Source: Candidatus Desulfofervidus auxilii
GTDB lineage: Bacteria > Desulfobacterota > Desulfofervidia > Desulfofervidales > Desulfofervidaceae
DNA: 64,000 nucleotides
Direction: 5' to 3'
Assembly (NCBI RefSeq): GCF_001577525.1
Contig: NZ_CP013015.1
Coordinates: forward strand, 1,136,966 to 1,200,965
Both the position numbers and the translations under genes were made by a program. Below, in pieces: positions 29,182-58,720 of the stretch (positions are counted from its first letter, which is position 1; each line of letters opens with the position of its first letter). The notes beneath the pieces are model-generated. The model was given only the letters and a program-made list of their open reading frames with translations, was not told the DNA's origin and ran no database searches.

Positions 29182-32007
29182 TTAGCTAATTATGTCTTTA
29201 AGTACCTTCGCTAAATCTACCATTCTATATGGTTTGGCAATAGCTCCACAAAAACCATACTTTTTATAATCAGCCATAATTGGATCTGTAGAATAACCAC
29301 TTGAAACAATGCCCTTTACATCAGGGTCTATTTCAGATAACCTTTTTATTGCTTCTTCTCCACCCATACTTCCTGGAACAATTAAGTCTAAAATCACTGC
29401 ATCAAAAGGTTTTTTTTCTAATAAAGCCTTTTTGTATAAATCAATTGCTTCATACCCGTCTTTAGCAAATTCTGTTTCATATCCAAGCTGATTTAACATT
29501 TCACCAAGGACTTCTAGAATCATTTCTTCATCATCCATAATAAGCACTCTGCCCTTTCCTTTAATTTTTTCTTCTATACCTTCTATTATCTTTGTTTTTT
29601 TAGAAGCAGGTAAATAGAGGTAAAAAATACTTCCTTTACCTACTTTTGATTTTGCAAATATATGTCCATGGTGTTTTTTTATAATTGAGTAGGCTGTGCT
29701 AAGCCCAAGACCACTTCCTCTTTTCTTGGTAGTAAAAAAGGGGTCAAATATCTTAGATAAGTATTTTTTAGGAATACCCACTCCCTGGTCTTTAATGGAT
29801 ATTTTTAGATATCTTCCTGCTTTAAGCGGCAAATTATCCTTTTTTGTTACTACTACATTCTCACAAATTACTTTAATTACTCCACCAGTGGGCATAGCTT
29901 GGTCTGCATTGATAATAATATTCTGAATCGCTTGAGCTATCTGGCTTTCATCTGCTTCAACCAGCCACAGGTCATCAGGAATAGAAAATTCACATCTTAC
30001 ATTTGAACCACTCAAAGCAAAACTCACCGCATCTCTTATCAATTCAGCCATAGAAATAACTTTTTTCACAGGTTCTCCTCCTTTAGCAAAGGTAAGGAGT
30101 TGCTGGCTCAAACCCTTGCCACGCAAGCATATATTTTCTACATTCTCCAACTTTTTAATAACCACTTCATCTTCGGGTCTTGAGTAAGTCTTGGCTAAAA
30201 TAATATTACCTAAAATACCAGTTAAGACATTGTTAAAATCATGGGCAATACCACCTGCTAATACCCCAAGTGATTCAAGTTTCTCCATCTTCATTAACTC
30301 CTGTTCTCTTTTTCTCTTTTCTGTCACATCCCGAAAGACAATAATAACGCCTATAATCTTTCCTGTGTGGTCTTTAATAGGTGCTCCACTGTCTGCAATC
30401 ACCCTTTCTGTTCCATCTCTGGCTATTACCACAGTATCATTGGCTAACCCTACTATACCTCCTGTGTTTATTACCCTTTCAAATGGATTTTCACACCTTT
30501 TGCGAGTATGTTCATTGATAATCACAAAGACTTTTTCTAATGGTTTTCCTATTGCCTTTTCCTGTTTCCAGCCTGTTAAATCTTCAGCAATTTTATTTAA
30601 CATAATAACTTTTCCTTCAGCATCTGTAACAATTACTCCATCTCCAATAGAACGTAAAGTAACAGAAAGCCTTTCTTTTTCAGCAAAAACCATCTCTCCC
30701 TTCAGTTTGTCCTCAAGGGCAATGCTCCACATATTAGCTATGGTTTCAAAGAAGATAGTGTCTTCTTTAGGTATATCTCTTTTTGTGTAAGCACATAGAT
30801 GAACCACTCCTAAAAGTGTTCTTTTTTCTCCAATAAGAGGATAGCTGATGATTGAATTTATACCCAATTCATTAAGTCTTTGGGCATGGGTATGTAATAT
30901 TTTGTGTTTTTTGACATCTGGGGCAAAGATAGGTATTTTTGTGCGTGCCACTAAAGCAGCTACATATTTTTTATCATCAATAGATTGTGTAGATATCTTT
31001 TCTCTTACTTGTTTTTTAACTAATCCTGATACAGCAATAGGAATAAGTGTTTTTGATTTTTCATTATAAATTCTTACCGCACCAAAATCAAAGTTTAATA
31101 TTTTTAACAAACTATTAAGGATTTTATGGCATAGCTTAGAAGCATCAGGAGCAAGAATAACCGCCTTAGCAACAGCAGAGAAGGCTTCGCGTTCTCTTTT
31201 AATTTTATCTTCTATCTTCTTTTTTTCTGTAATATCCCTTACCATTGTCTGCAAGGCAGGTTTCCCTTTATAAGTGATAGGGGAAAAGCTAACTTGTAAA
31301 TATTTTATTTCCCCGGCCTTTATCCATTTATATTCCTGTATGCCAATTGGTCCATATTTCATTACTCTGTTTATGTTTTCTAAAGCCCGCTGTCTTTCTT
31401 CTGAAGATATAAATTCAATAACATTTTTTTTGAGAATATCTTTTTTGGAAAGGTTTAGTATTTTACACATTGCCTGATTTACAAATACAAACTGGCCATC
31501 CTGAATAATTACAAAACCATCAGAAGAATTTTCAACAAGGGTTCTATATTTTTCTTCAGATTCTGCTAAAGCACTAGTGCGTTCTTTAACTTTTCTTTCT
31601 AATTCCTCTTGTAAGCGTTTTTCCTGGAGAATGGTTTTTCCTTCTACTGTAATATATTTAACTTTACCCTCTTTTATAACAGGCTGGGTATTAAAAATTA
31701 TAGAAATACTACCACCACTTATATCCCTTATACTTGTTTCCATTCTGCTTGAAACACCCTGTTTTGCCTTTTCAATGGCTTCAGTGACCTTTTTTTGTTC
31801 AGTTTTTGAATGAGAAAACCATTTTGTATCAGGAAAGTATTTCCCGTATACCTCTTCTAATTCAATTCCACCTGCTTTCAAAGGAGCTTTATTGCAAAAA
31901 ATCAATTTTCCTTCTGCATCAAGCTTTCCAACAAAGGTATCCAGGGTATCTATCCACTCTTTTAATGCCTCTATTTCCTGTTTGAGCTTTTTTAATTCAT
32001 CTTCCAT
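29182..32007 (-). CDS. Hybrid sensor histidine kinase (PAS-PAS-GAF-PAS-HisKA-HATPase-REC)
   Basis: The 941-residue cytoplasmic protein has no membrane segment. In order: PAS about 15-125, coiled coil (VKERTSALAESEEKYR), PAS about 145-265, GAF about 280-440, PAS about 445-570, HisKA with GGIAHDFNNVLTGILGN near 585, HATPase with FFTTKKRGSGLGLSTAYS, and a receiver domain (VLIMDDEEM, phosphate acceptor in ILDLIVPG). I chose ATG 32007 because a GGGAGGG site precedes it. The frame is open further up to 32271, but that part lies in the repeat and the putative promoter. It resembles the second hybrid kinase at 56019. Signal unknown; no partner regulator is adjacent. Confidence 0.85.
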   Translation of the reverse strand: MEDELKKLKQEIEALKEWIDTLDTFVGKLDAEGKLIFCNKAPLKAGGIELEEVYGKYFPDTKWFSHSKTEQKKVTEAIEKAKQGVSSRMETSIRDISGGSISIIFNTQPVIKEGKVKYITVEGKTILQEKRLQEELERKVKERTSALAESEEKYRTLVENSSDGFVIIQDGQFVFVNQAMCKILNLSKKDILKKNVIEFISSEERQRALENINRVMKYGPIGIQEYKWIKAGEIKYLQVSFSPITYKGKPALQTMVRDITEKKKIEDKIKREREAFSAVAKAVILAPDASKLCHKILNSLLKILNFDFGAVRIYNEKSKTLIPIAVSGLVKKQVREKISTQSIDDKKYVAALVARTKIPIFAPDVKKHKILHTHAQRLNELGINSIISYPLIGEKRTLLGVVHLCAYTKRDIPKEDTIFFETIANMWSIALEDKLKGEMVFAEKERLSVTLRSIGDGVIVTDAEGKVIMLNKIAEDLTGWKQEKAIGKPLEKVFVIINEHTRKRCENPFERVINTGGIVGLANDTVVIARDGTERVIADSGAPIKDHTGKIIGVIIVFRDVTEKRKREQELMKMEKLESLGVLAGGIAHDFNNVLTGILGNIILAKTYSRPEDEVVIKKLENVENICLRGKGLSQQLLTFAKGGEPVKKVISMAELIRDAVSFALSGSNVRCEFSIPDDLWLVEADESQIAQAIQNIIINADQAMPTGGVIKVICENVVVTKKDNLPLKAGRYLKISIKDQGVGIPKKYLSKIFDPFFTTKKRGSGLGLSTAYSIIKKHHGHIFAKSKVGKGSIFYLYLPASKKTKIIEGIEEKIKGKGRVLIMDDEEMILEVLGEMLNQLGYETEFAKDGYEAIDLYKKALLEKKPFDAVILDLIVPGSMGGEEAIKRLSEIDPDVKGIVSSGYSTDPIMADYKKYGFCGAIAKPYRMVDLAKVLKDIIS

Positions 32008-32134
32008 TTTTAATCCCTCCCAAGCCTTCTCTTTAAAATTTCCAACATTCAGTTTTCTTCCTTTTGGGCAGGACAAATCTCTAACAAGCTTATCCTCCCA
32101 ATTCTCATTTTGTAACTTAAGTAAACTATATAAA

Positions 32135-32163
32135 ATTCTAACACAAGATTCGAAAGTCCGAAA
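32135..32163 (-). promoter_or_regulatory. Possible promoter of the hybrid kinase, at fixed distance from repeat copy B
   Basis: On the minus strand a TAGAAT -10-like hexamer (32140-32135) lies 17 bp after a poor -35 match, TTTCGG (32163-32158). It is listed because its distance from the end of the repeat equals that of the better promoters beside copies A and C. Confidence 0.3.
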
Positions 32164-32183
32164 TGTTTCCATTACCTTTACCC

Positions 32184-32660
32184 AGGAGTTCGTCAAAGTA
32201 ATTTTAACGGAGATCCAAATGTTAAGCGCACCTGTCTGCCGACAGGCAGGATGGCTCAATGCAGAATGCAAATTGAAAAATGCAAAATCGCCTTCTGTTA
32301 AATTGGAACGTTAGCACGTTAGAATTGGAAATTGGGAATTGGGAAATGGGAATTTCTGTTTTCTATTTTCTGTTTCCCGTTTCCCTTTCCTTCTTTATCC
32401 ACGTTAGCACGTTAGAACGATGAGACGTGCTTAGTCCTTAGTCCCTAGTCCTTAGTCTTTAGTCAATTCTAGTTTTCTTTTTGATTGAGGCAATGAAGTT
32501 GTTTAATTTGACGCCTAGCTTATCAAGGTTTGGCATTACAAAGTTTGCAAGTTAAAAAGTTGCAAGTTAACACGTTGGAACTGGGAATTGGGAACTGGGA
32601 AATGGGAATTTCTGTTTTCCGTTTTCTATTTTCTTAACTGTATTTTGTAGGTTTGACCCC
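32184..32660 (-). repeat. Interspersed non-coding repeat, copy B (477 bp, inverted)
   Basis: This is the reverse-complement orientation of copies A and C and fills most of the 678-bp gap between the kinase start (32007) and the nuclease stop (32686). Both constant ends are present; the right end differs slightly (CGAACTCCT instead of CGAAGTCCT, and AATTTAACAG instead of AATTTGACAG). The interior holds the same 7-bp and 8-bp word blocks as copy A, including the GACTARG block at about 32430-32465. The 20-bp palindrome is at the same place. The rest of the gap is the kinase leader. Confidence 0.85.
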
Positions 32661-32685
32661 AGGAACAGGAAACAACCCCAGTAAC

Positions 32686-49522: not shown

Positions 49523-50048
49523 TTTTCATCCTCCAATTATATTATTTGTTACAGGGCTTTTCCCTAATTATGTTACCCATAAAGACTATTTACCCAAAAA
49601 ATAACATAGATTTCATGACATCTTTGAAATCTCTGAAATTTCCCAAGAGTGACTTTTCTAAAGAATAAGCATAAGACACAAAATCACCTAAAAGTAAATT
49701 CCCATTGATTATATTTTATACATTCTTCTGTTAGATAAACATAACACTTTTTCTCACTGTTAGTGAAAAACAAGTATAAAATAAACCCCATTTTCTACCT
49801 AGAATATCCCAAATGTTATAAAATGTCAAGAAATTAATTACCTCCAAAATTTGTTATTATTCTTAAAAAAATACCTCTCAAACCACCTCATTCTTATAGG
49901 AATTATAAGGAAGCACTTTTTAATAGGTTGTTAAGACTTTCTTGCTGTTTAAATAAGCTTAAAATTAATAAAAAATTTGATTTATTAATAAAATTGGTGT
50001 AAATAATCCCTTGATTAAAGTAGCTTGATTTTTAACCGGGGAATCTTT
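49523..50048. other. 526-bp AT-rich intergenic region between usp and ahbD
   Basis: No gene is visible. It holds the leaders of two divergent genes. The only structures seen are a small hairpin TCACTGTTAGTGA (49754-49766) flanked by T and A runs, and a promoter candidate for ahbD near its right end. I see no FNR- or HcpR-type palindrome that I would defend. Confidence 0.5.
49977..50005 (+). promoter_or_regulatory. Possible promoter of ahbD
   Basis: TTGATT (49977-49982) and TAAATA (50000-50005) are 17 bp apart, with TG directly before the -10. This would give a leader of about 35 nt including CGGGGA before ATG 50049. Confidence 0.4.
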
Positions 50049-51110
50049 ATGAAAAATAAAATTCCTCCTCTTCGTTTAGTGGCGTGGGAACTAACCAAGG
50101 CGTGTAATCTGGCTTGCAAGCACTGTCGGGCCAAGGCCATTACTAAATCTCTTCCAGATGAGTTAAACCATTCAGAAGCAGAGAAAATTCTGGATGATAT
50201 TGCTAGTTTTGCTCAACCTATTATTATCTTAACTGGTGGCGAACCATTAATGCGAAAAGATGTTTTAGACCTAGCTGCCTATGGCACTGAGAAGGGTTTA
50301 AGAATGGTGTTGGCCACAAATGGCACTTTGCTTGATGACATCTGGGTAAAAGAGTTAAAAAAAGTGGGTATAAAGCGGGTGAGTGTGAGTATAGATGGAG
50401 CTACAGCCAAAGCCCATGATACGTTTAGAGGTGTAAAAGGAGCCTTTGACCATACAATGGCTGGGATTGAGGCATTGAAAAGAGGAGGGCTTGATTTCCA
50501 AATAAATACCACTGTTACTAAAACGAACTTAAATCAAATTTCTGCTATTTCTGATTTGGCTGTTGAACTAGGAGCAGTGGCTTTTCATATCTTTTTATTG
50601 GTACCTATGGGCAGGGGCAGTGCCCTTAAAGAAGAAGTGATTACACCCCAGGAATATGAGGAGGTTTTGACTTGGCTAGTAGAGCAGCGAGAAAAACAGC
50701 TTATACAGGTAAAAGCTACTTGTGCACCTCAGTATTATCGTATTTTACGACAAAAGGCAAAAGAGAAAAATAAGAAGGTAACCTTTGAAACTTATGGTCT
50801 AGATGCAGTAACCAGAGGTTGTTTGGCAGGAATGGGATTTTGTTTTATTGATTCTACAGGTAAAGTGCAGACCTGTGGCTATTTAGAAGTAGAATGTGGG
50901 CATGTGCGAAAAGAACCCCTTTCTAAAATCTGGCATGATTCTGAAGTATTTAATAAACTAAGGGACAAAAAACAATATAAAGGTAAATGTGGTAATTGTG
51001 AATACTGGCAGGTATGTGGTGGCTGTCGTGCCAGGGCATATGCTATCACTGGAGATTATTTGGCTCAAGAGCCCATGTGTTTGTATAGACCAAAAGGGAT
51101 AAAGGAGTAG
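50049..51110 (+). CDS. ahbD: Radical SAM heme synthase AhbD (Fe-coproporphyrin III decarboxylase)
   Basis: The 353-residue enzyme performs the last step of the siroheme-dependent heme pathway, removing two carboxyl groups from Fe-coproporphyrin III. LRLVAWELTKACNLACKHC at residues about 7-25 holds the radical SAM cluster cysteines and matches the AhbD opening rather than AhbC. TGGEPLMRKDV and ATNGTL follow. The C-terminal CGNCEYWQVCGGCRARAYA supplies ligands for a second cluster. ATG 50049 behind GGGGA is preferred over an upstream TTG. A siroheme decarboxylase subunit gene follows by 2 bp. This pathway is known from sulfate reducers and methanogens. Confidence 0.88.
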   Translation: MKNKIPPLRLVAWELTKACNLACKHCRAKAITKSLPDELNHSEAEKILDDIASFAQPIIILTGGEPLMRKDVLDLAAYGTEKGLRMVLATNGTLLDDIWVKELKKVGIKRVSVSIDGATAKAHDTFRGVKGAFDHTMAGIEALKRGGLDFQINTTVTKTNLNQISAISDLAVELGAVAFHIFLLVPMGRGSALKEEVITPQEYEEVLTWLVEQREKQLIQVKATCAPQYYRILRQKAKEKNKKVTFETYGLDAVTRGCLAGMGFCFIDSTGKVQTCGYLEVECGHVRKEPLSKIWHDSEVFNKLRDKKQYKGKCGNCEYWQVCGGCRARAYAITGDYLAQEPMCLYRPKGIKE

Positions 51111-51112
51111 AT

Positions 51113-51559
51113 ATGGATGCTATTGATCGCAAAATCATAAATGAGTTACAAACCCGCTTTCCTATTATCTCTCAGCCTTATGCTGAGATAGGGAAAAAGC
51201 TGGGTCTCTCTGAAAAGGAGGTATTAAAACGGGTAAAAAATTTAAAGGAAAAAGGTTATATTAGGCGCATTGGAGCCAATTTTAATTCAGATAAACTGGG
51301 ATTTGTGAGCACCTTATGTGCTGCCAAAGTGCCAAAGGAAAAAATTGCTGAGTTTGCCAAAGTAGTCAATCGGTATAAAGGTGTAACCCACAATTACTTA
51401 CGTCGGAGTGAATTCAATATTTGGTTTACCTTTATCGCACCCACTATGGATGAAATAGAAGAGGCATTAGAGGAGATTAAAAAAGAAACAGGTGTTCATG
51501 AAATATATAATTTCCCAGCTACCAAAACTTTTAAGATTAAGGTAAATTTTAAGGTGTAA
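51113..51559 (+). CDS. Siroheme decarboxylase subunit (AhbA/AhbB family)
   Basis: The 148-residue Lrp-like protein has an N-terminal winged helix (DRKIINELQTRFPI, then GLSEKEVLKRVKNLKEKGYI) and a C-terminal AsnC-type domain. The signatures FPIISQPYAEIG, IRRIGANFNSDKLGF, and VTHNYLRRSEFNIWFT are those of AhbA and AhbB, which together turn siroheme into 12,18-didecarboxysiroheme. HNYLRR contains the histidine and arginines of the siroheme site. Only one of the two subunits is here, so its partner must be elsewhere. I cannot tell AhbA from AhbB with confidence. It ends 1 bp from the convergent GIY-YIG gene. Confidence 0.85.
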   Translation: MDAIDRKIINELQTRFPIISQPYAEIGKKLGLSEKEVLKRVKNLKEKGYIRRIGANFNSDKLGFVSTLCAAKVPKEKIAEFAKVVNRYKGVTHNYLRRSEFNIWFTFIAPTMDEIEEALEEIKKETGVHEIYNFPATKTFKIKVNFKV

Positions 51560-51560
51560 A

Positions 51561-51992
51561 TTACAGTTCAATAAACATACATAGAGAGGGAGAAAAGGCA
51601 TTCATTACTTCTTTTTTGAGTTTTTCAAAATGAGGACAATAATAAAGATGGCTTTCACAATCACAATCACTTACCCCAAAGCCAGGAAAACAGGATAACC
51701 GCTGTGAAAGTACTTGAGCTACTTTACATTCAATTTTTTCTGCTGTAATGGAAAACACTATTGCTTGAATTTTAGTCTTCTCTGTTAAATAATCAATATG
51801 CCAATATTTCTTCTTTTTGTGGTTTATGTGTCTCTTTAAACGCATTCTCAATCCACATTGGGCTGAACCAATATAGGCATAAAAACCAGGTTTAAATAAA
51901 AATCCTCCTAACTTTCCTATAGGAATAAATTTCTTTTTTGGAAGTTCAAAAAGGAGAGAATAAACTCCTTTTTGTCTAGGAATACCTTCCAT
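51561..51992 (-). CDS. DUF123-type GIY-YIG nuclease family protein
   Basis: In the 143-residue protein, GVYSLLFEL and PGFYAYIGSAQCGLRMRLKRH form the GIY-YIG-like core (GVY ... YIG). They are followed by WHIDYL and the C-terminal GFGVSDCDCESHLYY with clustered cysteines typical of DUF123. DUF123 proteins are widespread in archaea and scattered in bacteria. Activity on DNA is likely from the fold but unproven for this group. It is the last gene of the polymerase-helicase run, 23 bp after the helicase. Confidence 0.82.
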   Translation of the reverse strand: MEGIPRQKGVYSLLFELPKKKFIPIGKLGGFLFKPGFYAYIGSAQCGLRMRLKRHINHKKKKYWHIDYLTEKTKIQAIVFSITAEKIECKVAQVLSQRLSCFPGFGVSDCDCESHLYYCPHFEKLKKEVMNAFSPSLCMFIEL

Positions 51993-52015
51993 AACTTACC
52001 TTTAGTAAGACATTT

Positions 52016-53596
52016 TTAAGCTTCTGTCAACTCCGGCGGTAAAAAGTGAGTAAAAGCCCCCCTTGAAAACCGCTTATGAAAAACTTTAATGGTAGGTTTA
52101 TGGGTCACTAAACGGACAAAAAGGTTCTTTCCTTTAATATTTATTACTTCCCACACCTTACCAGCTAAGATAAAACGGTGGCCTTTTGTAGCCTGAGTGG
52201 TGATTTCGCCAATAGACTTTTGGGTTGTAGCTTCTATCACCTTAAATTCTTTGGTATTAGGAATGTTTGAATGAATTAGCCCCTTCTCTCCCATATTCAT
52301 GAGTTTTTCAGAGGCCCTAAAATTTTTTCCAATTTGTTCTATCCAGCTTTTTTCTGAAAGATGAATTATAATTTTTTCTATAATTTCCTCTGGAGCTAAG
52401 GGAGATAGAAGATAAAAAAGCTGTTCTAATTTTAAACCCGCTGGATGTGCAAAAAGAATAGAAAAAATTTGTTGCACTACTACCGAAAAGTCAGGAAGGT
52501 AATTCATAGATTCTACTATACCTTTATGAGCTAAAGAGGCATAAAGATTAAAACACTCTGCTTCTGTTTCCTCCTCATAAAAACCTATAGCTACCTGATA
52601 TTCCTTTTGCCTAGAAGCTCGTCCAATCCTTTGTTGAAAAGCGGAGGGTGTGGGTGGAGGGTAGTAACAAATGGCTACATCAAAATCACCAATATCAATC
52701 CCTATTTCTAGGGTGGAAGTGCAAATGCAAATTCCCCAGCGCCATTGTCTTAATAATATTTCTGTTTCTTCACGCAGACGTCGAGATAGGCTGCCATGAT
52801 GCATGAGCAAACGTTCTTTTGGCCAATATTGAGATAACTGTAAATAAAGCTCTTCTACATCTCTACGGCGATTACAAAATATAATGGCCTTGTGCCACTT
52901 TTTTTTCTTTAAAAGATTTATAATTTTATCCCAATCTTTAAAAAGATAGAATTTAAGTAGACGTGGCTGACCTGTCTGAATAACCTGCACAGGACTGAAA
53001 TATCTCTTTCCTACTTCTTCTGGGTTATACAGAGTAGCAGAAAGGGCAGCAAACTGAGGTGTTGTTTTTAAGTGTTCTTTTAAAAGCCTTCTTAAAAGTA
53101 TACGAAGCTGATCGCCTCTATAAGTATTATCTAAAAAATGGATTTCATCTATTACTATGGCTTGAATATGCCTCCAGATTTTCTTTTGTCTACATAAAAG
53201 AGAATCCAAGGATTCTGGGGTAGTAAAAAGCACCTGGAAAGGATTTTTAGGTAAATAGGGTTTATCGCCAGTCCTCACAATGGCTTTAAAACCACATTTT
53301 TTAAATCCCAAATCCAGACGGACTAAAAGATTATTAAGCAGGGCACGGGTAGGAGCGATATAAAGCAAGATTAAAGCATTTGTTTTTTGAGGTATTAATC
53401 TTTCTATCAAAGGTACTATCACGGCCTCTGTCTTACCGGTGGCAGTGGGCGAGCAGACTATGACATTTTCTCCTTTTAGAATGTGAGGGATGGTAGCCTC
53501 TTGGATAGGAGTTAATCTTCTAAAGCCACCAAAAAACACAGACCAAGTATTTTTAAGACTAGTTTTTAGAGAAACAGTAGGAGTTAATTTGTTCAC
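52016..53596 (-). CDS. DEAD/DEAH-box superfamily II helicase (Lhr/Ski2-like)
   Basis: The 526-residue helicase has Q-motif region RRLTPIQEATIPHIL, Walker A SPTATGKTEA near residue 49, motif Ia APTRALLNN, TTPESL, motif II VIDEIHFLD (DEIH), motif III ALSATLYNP, motif IV region AIIFCNRRRDVEEL, motif V TSTLEIGIDIGD, and motif VI QRIGRASRQ. A C-terminal extension of about 170 residues (winged-helix-like and basic) follows. It is shorter than bacterial Lhr (about 1500) and more like archaeal helicases. The start lies 3 bp from the stop of the DNA polymerase gene, so the two are made together. Confidence 0.87.
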   Translation of the reverse strand: MNKLTPTVSLKTSLKNTWSVFFGGFRRLTPIQEATIPHILKGENVIVCSPTATGKTEAVIVPLIERLIPQKTNALILLYIAPTRALLNNLLVRLDLGFKKCGFKAIVRTGDKPYLPKNPFQVLFTTPESLDSLLCRQKKIWRHIQAIVIDEIHFLDNTYRGDQLRILLRRLLKEHLKTTPQFAALSATLYNPEEVGKRYFSPVQVIQTGQPRLLKFYLFKDWDKIINLLKKKKWHKAIIFCNRRRDVEELYLQLSQYWPKERLLMHHGSLSRRLREETEILLRQWRWGICICTSTLEIGIDIGDFDVAICYYPPPTPSAFQQRIGRASRQKEYQVAIGFYEEETEAECFNLYASLAHKGIVESMNYLPDFSVVVQQIFSILFAHPAGLKLEQLFYLLSPLAPEEIIEKIIIHLSEKSWIEQIGKNFRASEKLMNMGEKGLIHSNIPNTKEFKVIEATTQKSIGEITTQATKGHRFILAGKVWEVINIKGKNLFVRLVTHKPTIKVFHKRFSRGAFTHFLPPELTEA

Positions 53597-53599
53597 TTT

Positions 53600-56011
53600 C
53601 TAAGAAACTAAGTCTTTTTCACTCACTCCCAAAACCTGAAGTACTCTTAAGGCAGCAGGCAGTATTTGATGATAAATGTAATAATCGCTGTCTATTTCCT
53701 TTAAAGAGACAAATTCAACTGGTTCTGCCCTTTGAGAAATAGAGCCTTGTCCTTTAGTGATAATAAACATAATTAACATCCCTTCCCCTACTTCCATGCC
53801 TCTTTCTCTTAATTTCTTAGCAGCCATCACATGAGGCCCTATTTGTTTATAGGTCTCAATAGGTTTAGTTAATTCTTCATAAATAATTAAGTCTTTCAAA
53901 AGAATTTGTTTTTGTTTTATGTTTTCAACTACTTCTTTCACATATTGCTTAGCCATCTCTATATCTTTATCCCTTAATACAAATTCTAATACTTTCCTCT
54001 GGACTTCCTTGGCCAAGTTACACCAATCCCTTCTCACTGTTTCTAACCCTCTGATCAAAAGCTCTCCTTTTTTATCTATTAAGGCATATCTTTTCTTGGC
54101 TGTCCCTGGGGCTGCTCCTCTGGGAATAAAAATGCCTGTTTCATAATATCCCTGCAGGTCGAGTTCCAACATACCTGGGAATTTCTCATTAATATAATCC
54201 AAAAACGCCTCTGTAGCCTGTTTTATGTCTCCATCTTTGGTCTTTAAAAACAAAGAATCCGTATCCGCATAAATTACCTCAAACCCTTTATTCTCTGCTT
54301 CTTCGATGGTCTTTTTTATCCAGTATCTTCCCAAAGCACTACAACTTTCAGCGCATTCCTTAGAATACCATTTGGAACCTGCAAATCCAAAATACCCATA
54401 AGTAGCATTGGCAATAATCTTTAAAGCATACTGCCTATTGTAAAGAACCTTATATTCCAAAGAAGTTTTTTCTGTTTCCTTTAATTTCTTTTTTATCTGA
54501 CTCCTTTTTTCAATTAATTCTTTTATCACACTGGGAATAAACCCTTCTTTTCTCTGACAAAACCAATAATTTAATCCTGCAACTTTATGACCATTTTCTT
54601 CACAACAATCACAATTTAAGGTTTCTGGTGAGATGTTAAAACTGACAATTAGGCTGGGATAAAGAGACCTGAAGTCTAAAATAGCAATCTTTTCATGAAT
54701 ACCAGGCAGAGGTTCTTTTACAAAGCCACCGATATAAGTGATTTTTCTTCTTTTAAGAACTTGTTCATATTTAGGTTGATTGGGAATGATTTCATTTTTC
54801 TCACTGGCCTTTCTGGATAGATACCATTCTACTAACTGTCCATAGGTCATCCTGGAAACATCAAACAGGATTTGCCCCACAGTTTTTGTAATTTCAAAGT
54901 TTTGAGGTAACAAAATCTCAGCCAATCTATAAGTAAGCTCAGCATCTTTTAAACAATATTCAGCCAATTTGCTCAAATTTTTTCCCTTTCTCCAGGCCTC
55001 AAGCATTTCTTGATAATCCACCTCAATTTTTTTGTCTCCCAAAAGTTCACTAGAAACGGCATCCAAGCTCAAAACTTCTGTTTGAAGACTGGGAGATAAA
55101 ATATTGCTTATAAAGTTAAAAATATCTAAATGCACTATTCCATTCAACCTGGCAGAGCTTATTCTTGCTCTTCGGGTAAACTTTGTTTCGGTCTTATCCC
55201 TAGAAACTATTAATTTTACCTTATTTGATTGACATCTATCCATTAACACCTGAAAATCAAAAGAATCACCATAATATGTAACTATAATATCTGGAAGATA
55301 TTCATTGAATGTCTTTACTATCTTTTGAAGAAGTTCTTTTTCGTCTTTGACCACCTCAACCCAATCAGGATAATCTGACTTTTGGTCAGTAATTACTTTT
55401 TTAAACGCCTTTCCATAAAATGAAGCCATTACTATCTGCTTTTCCCCAGCTATTTCTGATGTTTCAATATCAAAGGCCAAAATTTTAAGTTCAGGAATAG
55501 ATATATCCTCTAAAACCTTTATTTTTTTAGCATTTAAAGCCAAATCCACCTTATAATTGGTATTTAGCTTTTCTCCTTCTATCTCCAGCCAGCAATTTCC
55601 ATCAATTCTTTTATCCATTAAAAATCTACGATAAAAATTTATGCTATATTCATATTCTTCAATAATTGAACCCGTACCCCCTCTATTCTTTTCTAAGACT
55701 TTAATAAAATCCCTTATTTTTTGAGTATGTTGAGGGAGGAAACAAGTGATTTTTAAAAATTCTTTTAGTTCTCCATTTAATTTTTTTTCTATTTTTTCAA
55801 TCCCTTTGACTGAAATATTTTTCCCTTTAAGAATTTCTTCTATATCTTTTTGAGCCTTTTTAATATCCTTAGGAAAGACAAAAAAATAGGGATTACTTTG
55901 CACAAAGACAACCACATTTTTACCATCGGCAGTCTTTCCCCAAAGTCTTATCTTTAAACCTTTCTTTTCAGTAATATAATCTATATCTAAAAGAAAGAAC
56001 CTTATTTTCAT
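53600..56011 (-). CDS. Family B DNA polymerase (archaeal-like)
   Basis: The 803-residue polymerase has an N-terminal domain of about 165 residues. Exonuclease motifs are FDIETSE (Exo I, near 178), YYGDSFDF (Exo II) and YCLKDAELTYRL (Exo III), so proofreading is intact. Polymerase motifs A DFRSLYPSLI (near 445), B KIIANATYGYFGF and C YADTDSLF (near 582) are complete. The KISYR-equivalent and thumb regions follow, and the protein ends without a PIP-like tail that I recognise. Length and motif spelling resemble archaeal PolB more than E. coli Pol II. It starts 7 bp after the kinase stop and is followed by a helicase and a nuclease. Confidence 0.9.
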   Translation of the reverse strand: MKIRFFLLDIDYITEKKGLKIRLWGKTADGKNVVVFVQSNPYFFVFPKDIKKAQKDIEEILKGKNISVKGIEKIEKKLNGELKEFLKITCFLPQHTQKIRDFIKVLEKNRGGTGSIIEEYEYSINFYRRFLMDKRIDGNCWLEIEGEKLNTNYKVDLALNAKKIKVLEDISIPELKILAFDIETSEIAGEKQIVMASFYGKAFKKVITDQKSDYPDWVEVVKDEKELLQKIVKTFNEYLPDIIVTYYGDSFDFQVLMDRCQSNKVKLIVSRDKTETKFTRRARISSARLNGIVHLDIFNFISNILSPSLQTEVLSLDAVSSELLGDKKIEVDYQEMLEAWRKGKNLSKLAEYCLKDAELTYRLAEILLPQNFEITKTVGQILFDVSRMTYGQLVEWYLSRKASEKNEIIPNQPKYEQVLKRRKITYIGGFVKEPLPGIHEKIAILDFRSLYPSLIVSFNISPETLNCDCCEENGHKVAGLNYWFCQRKEGFIPSVIKELIEKRSQIKKKLKETEKTSLEYKVLYNRQYALKIIANATYGYFGFAGSKWYSKECAESCSALGRYWIKKTIEEAENKGFEVIYADTDSLFLKTKDGDIKQATEAFLDYINEKFPGMLELDLQGYYETGIFIPRGAAPGTAKKRYALIDKKGELLIRGLETVRRDWCNLAKEVQRKVLEFVLRDKDIEMAKQYVKEVVENIKQKQILLKDLIIYEELTKPIETYKQIGPHVMAAKKLRERGMEVGEGMLIMFIITKGQGSISQRAEPVEFVSLKEIDSDYYIYHQILPAALRVLQVLGVSEKDLVS

Positions 56012-56018
56012 GACAAAT

Positions 56019-58004
56019 TTATTCCTTATCCAAAATCTTTCTGATTTTTCGTGATAATTCCTTCAAAGTAAAAGGCTTCTGGATAAAACCATCACATCCA
56101 CGTTCCAATATTTCTTTTATTTCATCATTCATACTATATCCACTAGAAAGGAGAACCTTTATGTCTGGGTTTATTTTTTTTAACATATCGTATATCTCTC
56201 CACCACCTATATCTGGCATAACCGTATCTAAGATGACCATATCAATTTGTTCATTTTTCGCTCTATAGATCTCAATAACCTCCTTACCACTTTTGGCTAT
56301 TAAGACTTTATATCCTAGGGTTTCTAACAACTCCTTGCCTGTCTTAATTATCATTTCTTCATCATCTACAAAAAGAATAGTTTCACCACCTTTTAACACC
56401 CCTTCTGCTAATTTCTCCTGCTTTATGGCTTCTTTTTCAGAAGCGGGAAAGTAAATGTTAAAAGTAGTTCCTCTACCTTTCTCACTGTATACAGTGATAA
56501 TACCACCATGGTTCTTGATGATTCCATAAGCAGAAGCTAGGCCCAATCCCGTACCCCGATTTCCTTCTTTGGTGGTAAAAAATGGTTCAAATATTCTTTG
56601 TTTGGTTGTTTCATCCATACCAACACCGGTATCCGTCACAGAGATCTTCACATATGGACCAGGTTTTACCTTAAATGGCCTCACATAATTCTCATCAAGA
56701 GTGATATTTTGAGTTTCAAGGTATAACTCTCCACCTCCAGGCATGGCCTGCCAGGCATTGATATAGAGATTTAAAAGCACCTGTTCTATCTGCCCCACAT
56801 CTACTTCCACTGTCCAAATATCTTTTTGAAATTTAGTATAAATCTTAATTTGCCTTTTAGTCTGAGCAAACATATCAGAACTTCTCTTTACCACCTTATT
56901 TAAGTCAGTAGGTTCCACCTGAAATTTACCCCCTCTGGCAAAGTCCAAAAGCTCTTGGCTCAACTTTGCTCCCTCTTGAACAAGATGTTCAACGTTTTTC
57001 AATTTTTCATAATCAGGGTGGCTGGGATTCTTATTAAGGAGGATTAAAGAAATATTTCCCAAAATGCCCATAAGGAGGTTATTAAAATTATGAGCAATCC
57101 CTCCTGCCAAAGTTCCTAGAGACTCCATCCTCTGGATTTTATGAAGTTGGGCTTCAAGACGTTTCTTTTCTTCTTGGGCACGCTTTATTTCACTGAGATC
57201 TGTGACTACAGCATAACTTCCACGATAAACCCAATTTTCAAATATAGGTGATGCCGACATCAGAGTGGGAACTTTTTTGCCTGATTTTGTAGTCCATGTG
57301 AGTTCATATTGTGATGGTTCACCTCGGCGACGCTTTGCAAGTTCTTTTTCTAATATCTCCCGATTCTTTTCATCAAATAATTCTCTTATGTTCTTACCAA
57401 TCAACTCCACCTCGCTATATTCAATCATCTCACACAAACGGGGATTAGCAAATGTTATATATCCCTTTTCGTCAATGGCAACAAATCCCTCATTTATCCG
57501 AAAGATGAGTTCGCGGTATTTTGCCTCAGATTTTCTTAATGCCTCTTCTGCCTGCTTACGTTGGGTGATATCTTGCTGAAAAACCATAAAACCCATGATA
57601 TCTCCAACCTCATACCGCAAAGCAGAAACTGAGCAATCTAGTATTATAATCTTTCCATCCTTACAAATGAACTCCACTTCTTGCCGATGGTGTCCTCTTT
57701 CAAGTAAAATAGGAAACTGTTCGTCAAATATCTTTTTGGAGGTCAAGGTAAAAAAATCAGAAATGCATTTTCCGAGAACTTCTTCTTGTAAATATCCACT
57801 GACTTTTAAGGTAGCATCATTTGTTTGAAGTATATTGCCCTTGGTGTCAATGATATATATAAATTCCGGTGCCGATTCAAAGAAGAACCTAAACCACCTT
57901 TCCCTCTCTTGTAACACTTCCTGTGCCTGTTTATGTTTAGCGATTTTTTCCTTTAAATTCTCGTCCTTTTGTTCTAATTCTTCATCAGATGTTTTTTTGA
58001 CCAT
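56019..58004 (-). CDS. Hybrid sensor histidine kinase (PAS-PAS-HisKA-HATPase-REC)
   Basis: The 661-residue soluble protein has a coiled-coil start (about 1-35), PAS 36-155 (SAPEFIYIIDTKGNILQTND), PAS 160-280 (NEGFVAIDEKGYITFANP), HisKA with GGIAHNFNNLLMGILGN near 305, HATPase (FFTTKEGNRGTGLGLASAYG near 465) and a C-terminal receiver (ILFVDDEEM, acceptor in VILDTVMPD). GGAGGT precedes the ATG. It is the first gene of a run with PolB, helicase and GIY-YIG, the next gene starting 7 bp on. A signal kinase leading a DNA-repair-like operon is unusual; there is no DNA-binding output domain in it. Confidence 0.88.
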   Translation of the reverse strand: MVKKTSDEELEQKDENLKEKIAKHKQAQEVLQERERWFRFFFESAPEFIYIIDTKGNILQTNDATLKVSGYLQEEVLGKCISDFFTLTSKKIFDEQFPILLERGHHRQEVEFICKDGKIIILDCSVSALRYEVGDIMGFMVFQQDITQRKQAEEALRKSEAKYRELIFRINEGFVAIDEKGYITFANPRLCEMIEYSEVELIGKNIRELFDEKNREILEKELAKRRRGEPSQYELTWTTKSGKKVPTLMSASPIFENWVYRGSYAVVTDLSEIKRAQEEKKRLEAQLHKIQRMESLGTLAGGIAHNFNNLLMGILGNISLILLNKNPSHPDYEKLKNVEHLVQEGAKLSQELLDFARGGKFQVEPTDLNKVVKRSSDMFAQTKRQIKIYTKFQKDIWTVEVDVGQIEQVLLNLYINAWQAMPGGGELYLETQNITLDENYVRPFKVKPGPYVKISVTDTGVGMDETTKQRIFEPFFTTKEGNRGTGLGLASAYGIIKNHGGIITVYSEKGRGTTFNIYFPASEKEAIKQEKLAEGVLKGGETILFVDDEEMIIKTGKELLETLGYKVLIAKSGKEVIEIYRAKNEQIDMVILDTVMPDIGGGEIYDMLKKINPDIKVLLSSGYSMNDEIKEILERGCDGFIQKPFTLKELSRKIRKILDKE

Positions 58005-58145
58005 TAATGGAGACCTCCTGAACTTTCTAATAAAGGGAACTTTTTATCATATTTCTTTAGGAAATGCACACTTTATCTCTTAAAGAGAGAGTTGTCCTCC
58101 AGAAAAAAATCCTAAAAAGAAGGTAGCCCCTATAACCTAAATAAA

Positions 58146-58174
58146 AAATTACAAAGCAATCAATTTTTTGTCAA
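58146..58174 (-). promoter_or_regulatory. Promoter of the kinase-PolB-helicase-GIY-YIG run
   Basis: On the minus strand TTGACA (58174-58169) and TAATTT (58151-58146) are 17 bp apart. The leader to ATG 58004 would be about 135 nt, long enough for regulation, and holds the strong CAGGAGGT site. Confidence 0.5.
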
Positions 58175-58230
58175 TGGGATATAATTCCAACCTCAGGGCT
58201 ACATTAAAGTCAGGCCATAAGTAATTTAAA

Positions 58231-58320
58231 AAAATCCAAATGCCAAAATAAAATCCAAATGTCTAAATGCCAAAACATTAAATCAGTGAGTAGTGAAATA
58301 GTGAGGGAATGAAATAGCCA
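58231..58320. repeat. Degenerate 7/8-bp word block next to repeat copy C
   Basis: About 90 bp of short degenerate tandem words: first AAATCC / AAATGCC / AAATGTC variants, then an octamer series close to GTGARNNA (GTGAGTA, GTGAAATA, GTGAGGGA, ATGAAATA). It resembles the interior of the large repeats in style but has different words, and lies just outside the left end of copy C. Confidence 0.5.
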
Positions 58321-58334
58321 AATGTAGTGGAATT

Positions 58335-58671
58335 GGGGTCTAACCTACAAAATACAGTTAAGAAAATAGAAAACGGAAAACAGAAATTCCCAATTCCCAG
58401 TTCCAACGTGTTAACTTGCAAACTTTCTAACTTACAACTTTGTAAACCTGCATAAAGAAGGAAAGGGAAACGGGAAATAGAAAATAGAAATTCCCAATTC
58501 CCAGTTCCTAATTCCCAATTCTAACGTCCCAACGTTCTAACGTGCAAACGTGTAAACGTGCTAACGTTCCAATTTGACAGAAGGCGATTTTGCATTTTTC
58601 AATTTGCATTCTGCATTGAGCCATTGCGCTTAACATTTGGATCTCCGTTAAAATTACTTTGACGAAGTCCT
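58335..58671 (+). repeat. Interspersed non-coding repeat, copy C (337 bp)
   Basis: The same ends as copies A and B are present: AACCTACAAAATACAGTTAA at the left and CTCCGTTAAAATTACTTTGA then CGAAGTCCT at the right. It is shorter: the GACTARG heptamer block and the 20-bp palindrome are absent. At the palindrome site it reads GAGCCATTGCGC without gap or scar. The octamer block (AACGTGCA, AACGTGTA, AACGTGCT, AACGTTCC) is clear at about 58520-58575. No coding frame was recognised. It occupies most of the gap between the kinase promoter and the lipoprotein promoter. Confidence 0.85.
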
Positions 58672-58691
58672 GTGTTGGGTTATTTTTCTAC

Positions 58692-58720
58692 TTGTTTTTT
58701 TGAAAACAATACTTTATAAT
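58692..58720 (+). promoter_or_regulatory. Promoter of the Ala/Cys-rich lipoprotein, downstream of repeat copy C
   Basis: TTGTTT (58692-58697) and a perfect TATAAT (58715-58720) are 17 bp apart. The -35 begins 20 bp after the end of copy C, exactly as at copy A although the intervening bases are unrelated. Confidence 0.6.

Follow-up and report, generated by a model that had tools for sequence, protein, structure and literature searches.

A four-gene string with an archaeal-type DNA polymerase in Candidatus Desulfofervidus auxilii is probably a local transcription unit whose helicase is predicted to work with distant BrxD-like ATPases

In a 64,000-nucleotide stretch of the genome of Candidatus Desulfofervidus auxilii (contig NZ_CP013015.1, positions 1,136,966 to 1,200,965; hereafter, the window), four genes on the minus strand, separated by gaps of 7, 3 and 23 nt, encode, in this order, a hybrid histidine kinase, a family B DNA polymerase (PolB), a DEIH helicase and a DUF123 nuclease (Table 1). 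We consider it probable (roughly 0.7) that these genes form one transcription unit locally, as opposed to one conserved machine, and that the helicase works with ATPases encoded far from it. A sequence-only reading of the window had described the same genes, gaps, motifs and families, all of which were confirmed here, and had taken them for an archaeal-looking repair cassette headed by a sensor kinase and plausibly transferred as a block. The string appears to be mostly local instead, because relatives keep the genes apart and the helicase has its predicted partners elsewhere. Four intact genes in neat operon order can thus be misleading as to function; here, it is the comparison of neighbourhoods that points the helicase to distant ATPases. 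Judging from what is known of their families, PolB, the helicase and DUF123 probably each act on DNA separately.

The window genome (G000, 2.54 Mb) was compared with relatives at two levels, namely six genomes of its order, itself and G001 to G005 among them (G005, 82% complete, belongs to a sister family), and 297 genomes of the host phylum, Thermodesulfobacteriota. The flanks of polB were readable in four related Desulfofervidaceae genomes. In G001, where the polymerase is 80% identical to that of the window, polB is flanked by a PAP2 gene on one side and by a divergent flavin reductase gene on the other, the helicase gene is on a different contig, and some 140 kb separate the DUF123 gene from the helicase gene. 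In G003 and G004 (polymerase identity 71-72%), polB follows a PEBP gene or a His phosphatase gene, respectively; the helicase was not found in either genome, and their DUF123 genes are at other sites. In a further genome, available as a 1.1-Mb assembly only (locus L076; 78%), polB is followed by an unknown gene and NTPase_1, the DUF123 gene is on another contig, and no helicase was found. Eight more PolB loci (L079-L086) show other contexts, and in G005 the helicase is present and polB was not detected. The search for the same gene order that had been proposed as a check did not recover the complete kinase-PolB-helicase-DUF123 arrangement in relatives; only the helicase-DUF123 pair recurs, in G002.

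The helicase has DEAD and Helicase_C Pfam domains, with the motif SPTATGKTE and the DEIH motif noted earlier, and its best PADLOC matches are BrxHI (237 bits, residues 24-494) and SngC (230 bits, residues 20-491), the helicases of type-2 BREX and Shango. The superfamily 2 core and the following DNA-binding region align with these profiles and with the helicase of G009, a genome from outside the order. The likeness does not extend to the C-terminal (Lhr-like) domain of BrxHI/SngC proteins, which total about 700 aa: more than 100 residues of the G009 protein are missing near the C-terminus of the window protein (526 aa), and the PADLOC match ends at position 515 of 698. A single-sequence structure prediction was unusable (mean predicted local distance difference test score, pLDDT, of 39). 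Helicases of this type have been described as a possible distinct clade (PMC12278908), and BrxD-BrxHI as a tight, linked dyad in which the BrxD ATPase is thought to load the helicase (PMC12839542).

In the phylum survey, 16 genomes encode a member of the helicase family (A2, E <= 1e-45), and all 16 are among the 23 that encode the ATPase family (A6) (Fisher p = 2 × 10−21, in a test that treats related genomes as independent). In 13 of 13 helicase-encoding genomes sampled outside the host order, about 3 kb at most separate the helicase gene from a BrxD-like ATPase gene. The window genome departs from this pattern of type-2 BREX and Shango: its helicase adjoins polB and the DUF123 gene, and two tandem ATPase genes overlapping by 4 nt (G000 C1 1512590-1515165; L111:6591-9166) lie 324 kb away. 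Five order genomes out of six (G000, G001, G003, G004 and G005) encode such a tandem pair, which matches the BrxD/SngB profiles and never has an adjacent helicase gene. In the fetched set, the nearest relative outside the order of both the ATPase pair (44-46%) and the helicase (38-40%) is one and the same operon, that of G009, so that the simplest reading is a single ancestral ATPase-helicase set whose helicase gene moved. The order hypothetical gene-ATPase-ATPase-helicase is seen at the G009 locus and on plasmids of Desulfomonile tiedjei and Aulosira laxa; no similarity was detected between the 279-aa hypothetical protein of the G009 operon and its Desulfomonile counterpart, or between the 279-aa protein and the 226-aa product of the gene upstream of the G001 helicase. 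The predicted partners of the window helicase are, on these grounds, the BrxD-like ATPases, and not the kinase or the polymerase. The protein is a shortened BrxHI/SngC-type DNA translocase that most likely works in trans with tandem BrxD-like, ORC/Cdc6-type ATPases, which would load it on DNA as suggested for the dyad (PMC12839542). An unlinked BrxD-BrxD-BrxHI-like set could help to test the cooperation between ATPases and helicases of the BREX type; this split set, together with the bacterial clade of archaeal-type polymerases described below, is where we see the main value of the locus.

Compatible with this scheme, and tentatively worth considering even if we would bet somewhat against it, is the proposal that the helicase and the ATPases are what is left of an antiphage system resembling type-2 BREX or Shango, and that the host order has domesticated them for chromosome repair. 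The profile matches of both components and the persistence of the ATPase pair across the order are suggestive of such an origin, as is the lack of defence genes among the few flanking genes scanned, a scan that included no search aimed at PglX, PglZ, PglW, BrxC or TerB; the failure to find the helicase in G003 and G004 speaks against it.

The kinase shows two PAS domains, HATPase_c and REC, with HisKA reaching only 20.6 bits against a cut-off of 26.9, and shares the PAS, catalytic and C-terminal receiver domains of CckA/AtoS-like hybrid histidine kinases, from which it differs in that no linked regulator was recognised. Its best relative in G001 (51% identity over residues 162-660) is encoded on another contig, without polB, between two Hpt genes. 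Among the genomes compared, this kinase gene adjoins polB in that of the window only; it is a lineage-specific upstream neighbour, and the suggestion that it heads a signal-controlled repair system is not supported. Nothing ties the polymerase, the helicase or the DUF123 protein to a kinase signal, although joint transcription could coordinate their levels.

We infer that the four genes are probably co-transcribed in the window genome. The Shine-Dalgarno sequence is strong for the kinase (AGGAGGT), weak for PolB and DUF123, and absent for the helicase, which starts 3 nt beyond the polB stop codon; the small gap and the missing ribosome-binding motif suggest translational coupling of the helicase to polB. 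When the coding strand was scanned, no terminator-like sites were detected at the gene junctions. A single promoter for all four genes, as had been proposed, is plausible and unproven, because promoter-like matches were not above chance (18 found vs. 25 expected in shuffles); the promoter and terminator scan as a whole gave results at chance level. The earlier remark that no LexA-type site had been noticed was borne out, with no match to the E. coli consensus at up to three mismatches, a result that carries little weight for the host phylum.

Several observations weigh against the predominantly local interpretation, in addition to the dependence among genomes in the co-occurrence test. The tight spacing itself suggests co-expression of the four genes, and the ATPases can serve another role, given that G003 and G004 keep the pair and the helicase was not found there. 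The chief reason why our confidence is not higher is G002, where, at the beginning of contig C8, the helicase gene stops at position 352 and the DUF123 gene starts at 356 of locus L065, which raises the possibility that part of the gene string is both ancestral and functional. In the same genome, polB, located downstream of rplS, rnhB and DUF498, is cut short by the end of contig C25, in a compatible orientation; the missing 3' part of polB and 5' part of the helicase gene, about 2.3 kb together, would fit one gap, and a polB-helicase-DUF123 order is therefore possible. By polB identity, G002 groups with G003 and G004, not with the window lineage. The helicase-DUF123 pair, perhaps with polB, could accordingly be an ancestral neighbourhood that was broken up repeatedly.

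In its strongest form, this alternative posits a small repair unit ancestral to Desulfofervidaceae, in which the helicase opens DNA, DUF123 cuts and PolB fills; the unit would have been split later in G001, G003, G004 and the L076 genome, and joined by the kinase in the window lineage only. In its favour are the tight gaps in the window, the compatible contig end in G002 and the fact that two sub-lineages of the family have the helicase gene adjacent to the DUF123 gene. Nevertheless, we consider it unlikely, since polB is seen beside the helicase gene in the window genome alone, the helicase and DUF123 genes are apart in G001, DUF123 persists in G003 and G004 without the helicase, and elsewhere the helicase is linked to ATPases. 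Still less probable, in our estimation, is a scenario in which a BREX-type ATPase-helicase engine of Desulfofervidaceae left phage defence, lost part of the C-terminal region of the helicase and was rewired to chromosome repair by joining the helicase gene in one operon to those of an archaeal-type proofreading polymerase and a GIY-YIG nuclease, with the ATPase loaders acting in trans.

The polymerase, with DNA_pol_B and exo1 Pfam domains, is the sole PolB found in the window genome. Its proofreading site had been called intact, and all the acidic residues of the exonuclease and polymerase sites are indeed kept (D181, E183, D252, D356; D446, D583, D585). Like E. coli DNA polymerase II, it is a proofreading family B enzyme in a bacterium, and E. 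coli polymerase II is a bacterial repair polymerase; however, the two are only 25% identical, compared with 42% identity to the Thermococcus KOD enzyme, and the window protein scores 553 bits for the Pyrococcus enzyme vs. 153 bits for polymerase II and falls below the NCBIfam polymerase II equivalog cut-off (310 vs. 570 bits). In a tree of 29 sequences, 14 from bacterial assemblies form one clade (support 100/99) that adjoins KOD (89/96; three archaeal sequences sampled), apart from polymerase II and the other PolBs of the phylum. These results are indicative of a likely archaeal origin, from a donor that cannot be named because of the three archaeal sequences and some long branches. The polymerase form is thus archaeal in type, as the sequence-only reading held, but it is a long-standing resident of Desulfofervidaceae, 69-80% conserved across the family with consistent nesting, and is found in several other bacterial groups as well, which implies that it predates the gene order of the window. 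With regard to the archaeal PolB3 group, to which the Thermococcales enzymes belong, the bacterial clade is distinguished by a common short RGG-containing insertion. Of the uracil-pocket residues (Tyr7, Pro36 and Val93), Tyr and Pro are kept, whereas at the position of Val93, which we take to matter in the pocket of archaeal PolB, the bacterial clade has Thr or Pro throughout (Thr in the window enzyme). PolB would fill gaps or carry out repair synthesis, with proofreading, alongside the replicase of the cell. No useful literature on a Desulfofervidus DNA polymerase was found. This Thermococcales-like clade from bacterial assemblies may supply useful enzymes.

Besides Desulfofervidaceae, the hosts of the bacterial PolB clade include bins that carry labels such as Aminicenantes and Nitrospirae. 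Some of these labels belong to metagenome bins and may be wrong, for example, that of Parcubacteria bacterium GBS-2 (L083, a 0.7-Mb bin), whose PolB is 69% identical to the window enzyme, reflecting either lateral transfer or a misbinned contig. A polymerase from G009 (L072, contig C49) was set aside as a phylum relative because it groups with Pyrobaculum (661 bits) and lies on a 5.9-kb contig next to an archaeal-type Hel308-like helicase gene, and is thus probably archaeal contamination.

The fourth protein matches DUF123 with 91 bits (cut-off 25) and resembles the COG1833 nucleases in its GIY-YIG core and C-terminal Cys/His cluster, with invariant residues Y11, Y38, Y40, G42, R51, E88, C89, C110, C112 and H115; it differs in being a standalone protein of 143 aa. 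As an inferred COG1833 GIY-YIG endonuclease, it would nick DNA in damage processing. A description from 2006 presented DUF123 as mainly archaeal, and in Methanococcales it is fused to endonuclease III (PMC1564403). For the host phylum, larger sampling alters this view: DUF123 is present in 89 of the 297 phylum genomes and in all six order genomes, and among the control genomes it was found in Thermotoga maritima and three archaea, so that it cannot serve as the archaeal marker for which it had been taken. In two other bacterial genomes that encode a window-type polymerase (G298 and G299; L119:1502-2653 and L120:1451-2599), DUF123 is fused behind SfsA; the DUF123 survey also yielded numerous further open frames, roughly 390 aa long, that are candidates for the same fusion.

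Joint acquisition of an archaeal block, for example, from a partner among the anaerobic methanotrophic archaea (ANME), with the sensor kinase controlling damage-induced synthesis, was rejected on account of the dispersed orthologues in relatives and is hardly credible: the clearly archaeal-type PolB and the continuous, operon-like spacing fit it, but the helicase reaches the sister family, where polB was not detected (in a genome 82% complete), many genomes of the phylum encode DUF123, the kinase is unlinked in relatives, no block-wide composition shift is seen (GC of the kinase, helicase and PolB genes within 2 standard deviations of window genes), and a recent ANME donor is unlikely given the conservation of polB across the family, in a comparison that included no ANME polymerase.

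Table 1 Features of the four-gene string and its surroundings (window coordinates).
Feature	Position	Strand	Remarks
Hybrid histidine kinase, PAS-PAS-(HisKA-like)-HATPase_c-REC	56019..58004	-	661 aa; CckA/AtoS-like; without output domain
Family B DNA polymerase (PolB), Thermococcales PolB type	53600..56011	-	803 aa; both active sites intact
DEIH helicase, short BrxHI/SngC-type	52016..53596	-	526 aa; GTG start; PADLOC and G009 alignment
DUF123 / COG1833 GIY-YIG nuclease	51561..51992	-	143 aa; C-terminal Cys/His cluster
Probable kinase promoter and leader	58005..58333	-	AGGAGGT Shine-Dalgarno directly 5' of ATG
Dispersed mosaic intergenic repeat, one copy	58334..58694	.	other copies 357-837, 32180-32661; not operon-specific
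AhbD (heme b synthase) and AhbA (siroheme decarboxylase)	50025..51559	+	convergent neighbours, outside the four-gene string

The convergent AhbD and AhbA genes belong to the siroheme-dependent heme pathway, and an AhbD-AhbA pair is also found near the DUF123 gene in G004 (L069). The mosaic intergenic repeat is composed of short modules, including GGGAATTGGGAATTTC and TTCTAACGTGCAAACG; no match to it was found in the fetched loci of relatives. Its three window copies are 76-84% alike in their main pieces, and two of them lie directly upstream of hybrid kinase genes, namely that of the four-gene string and another at 29182-32271.

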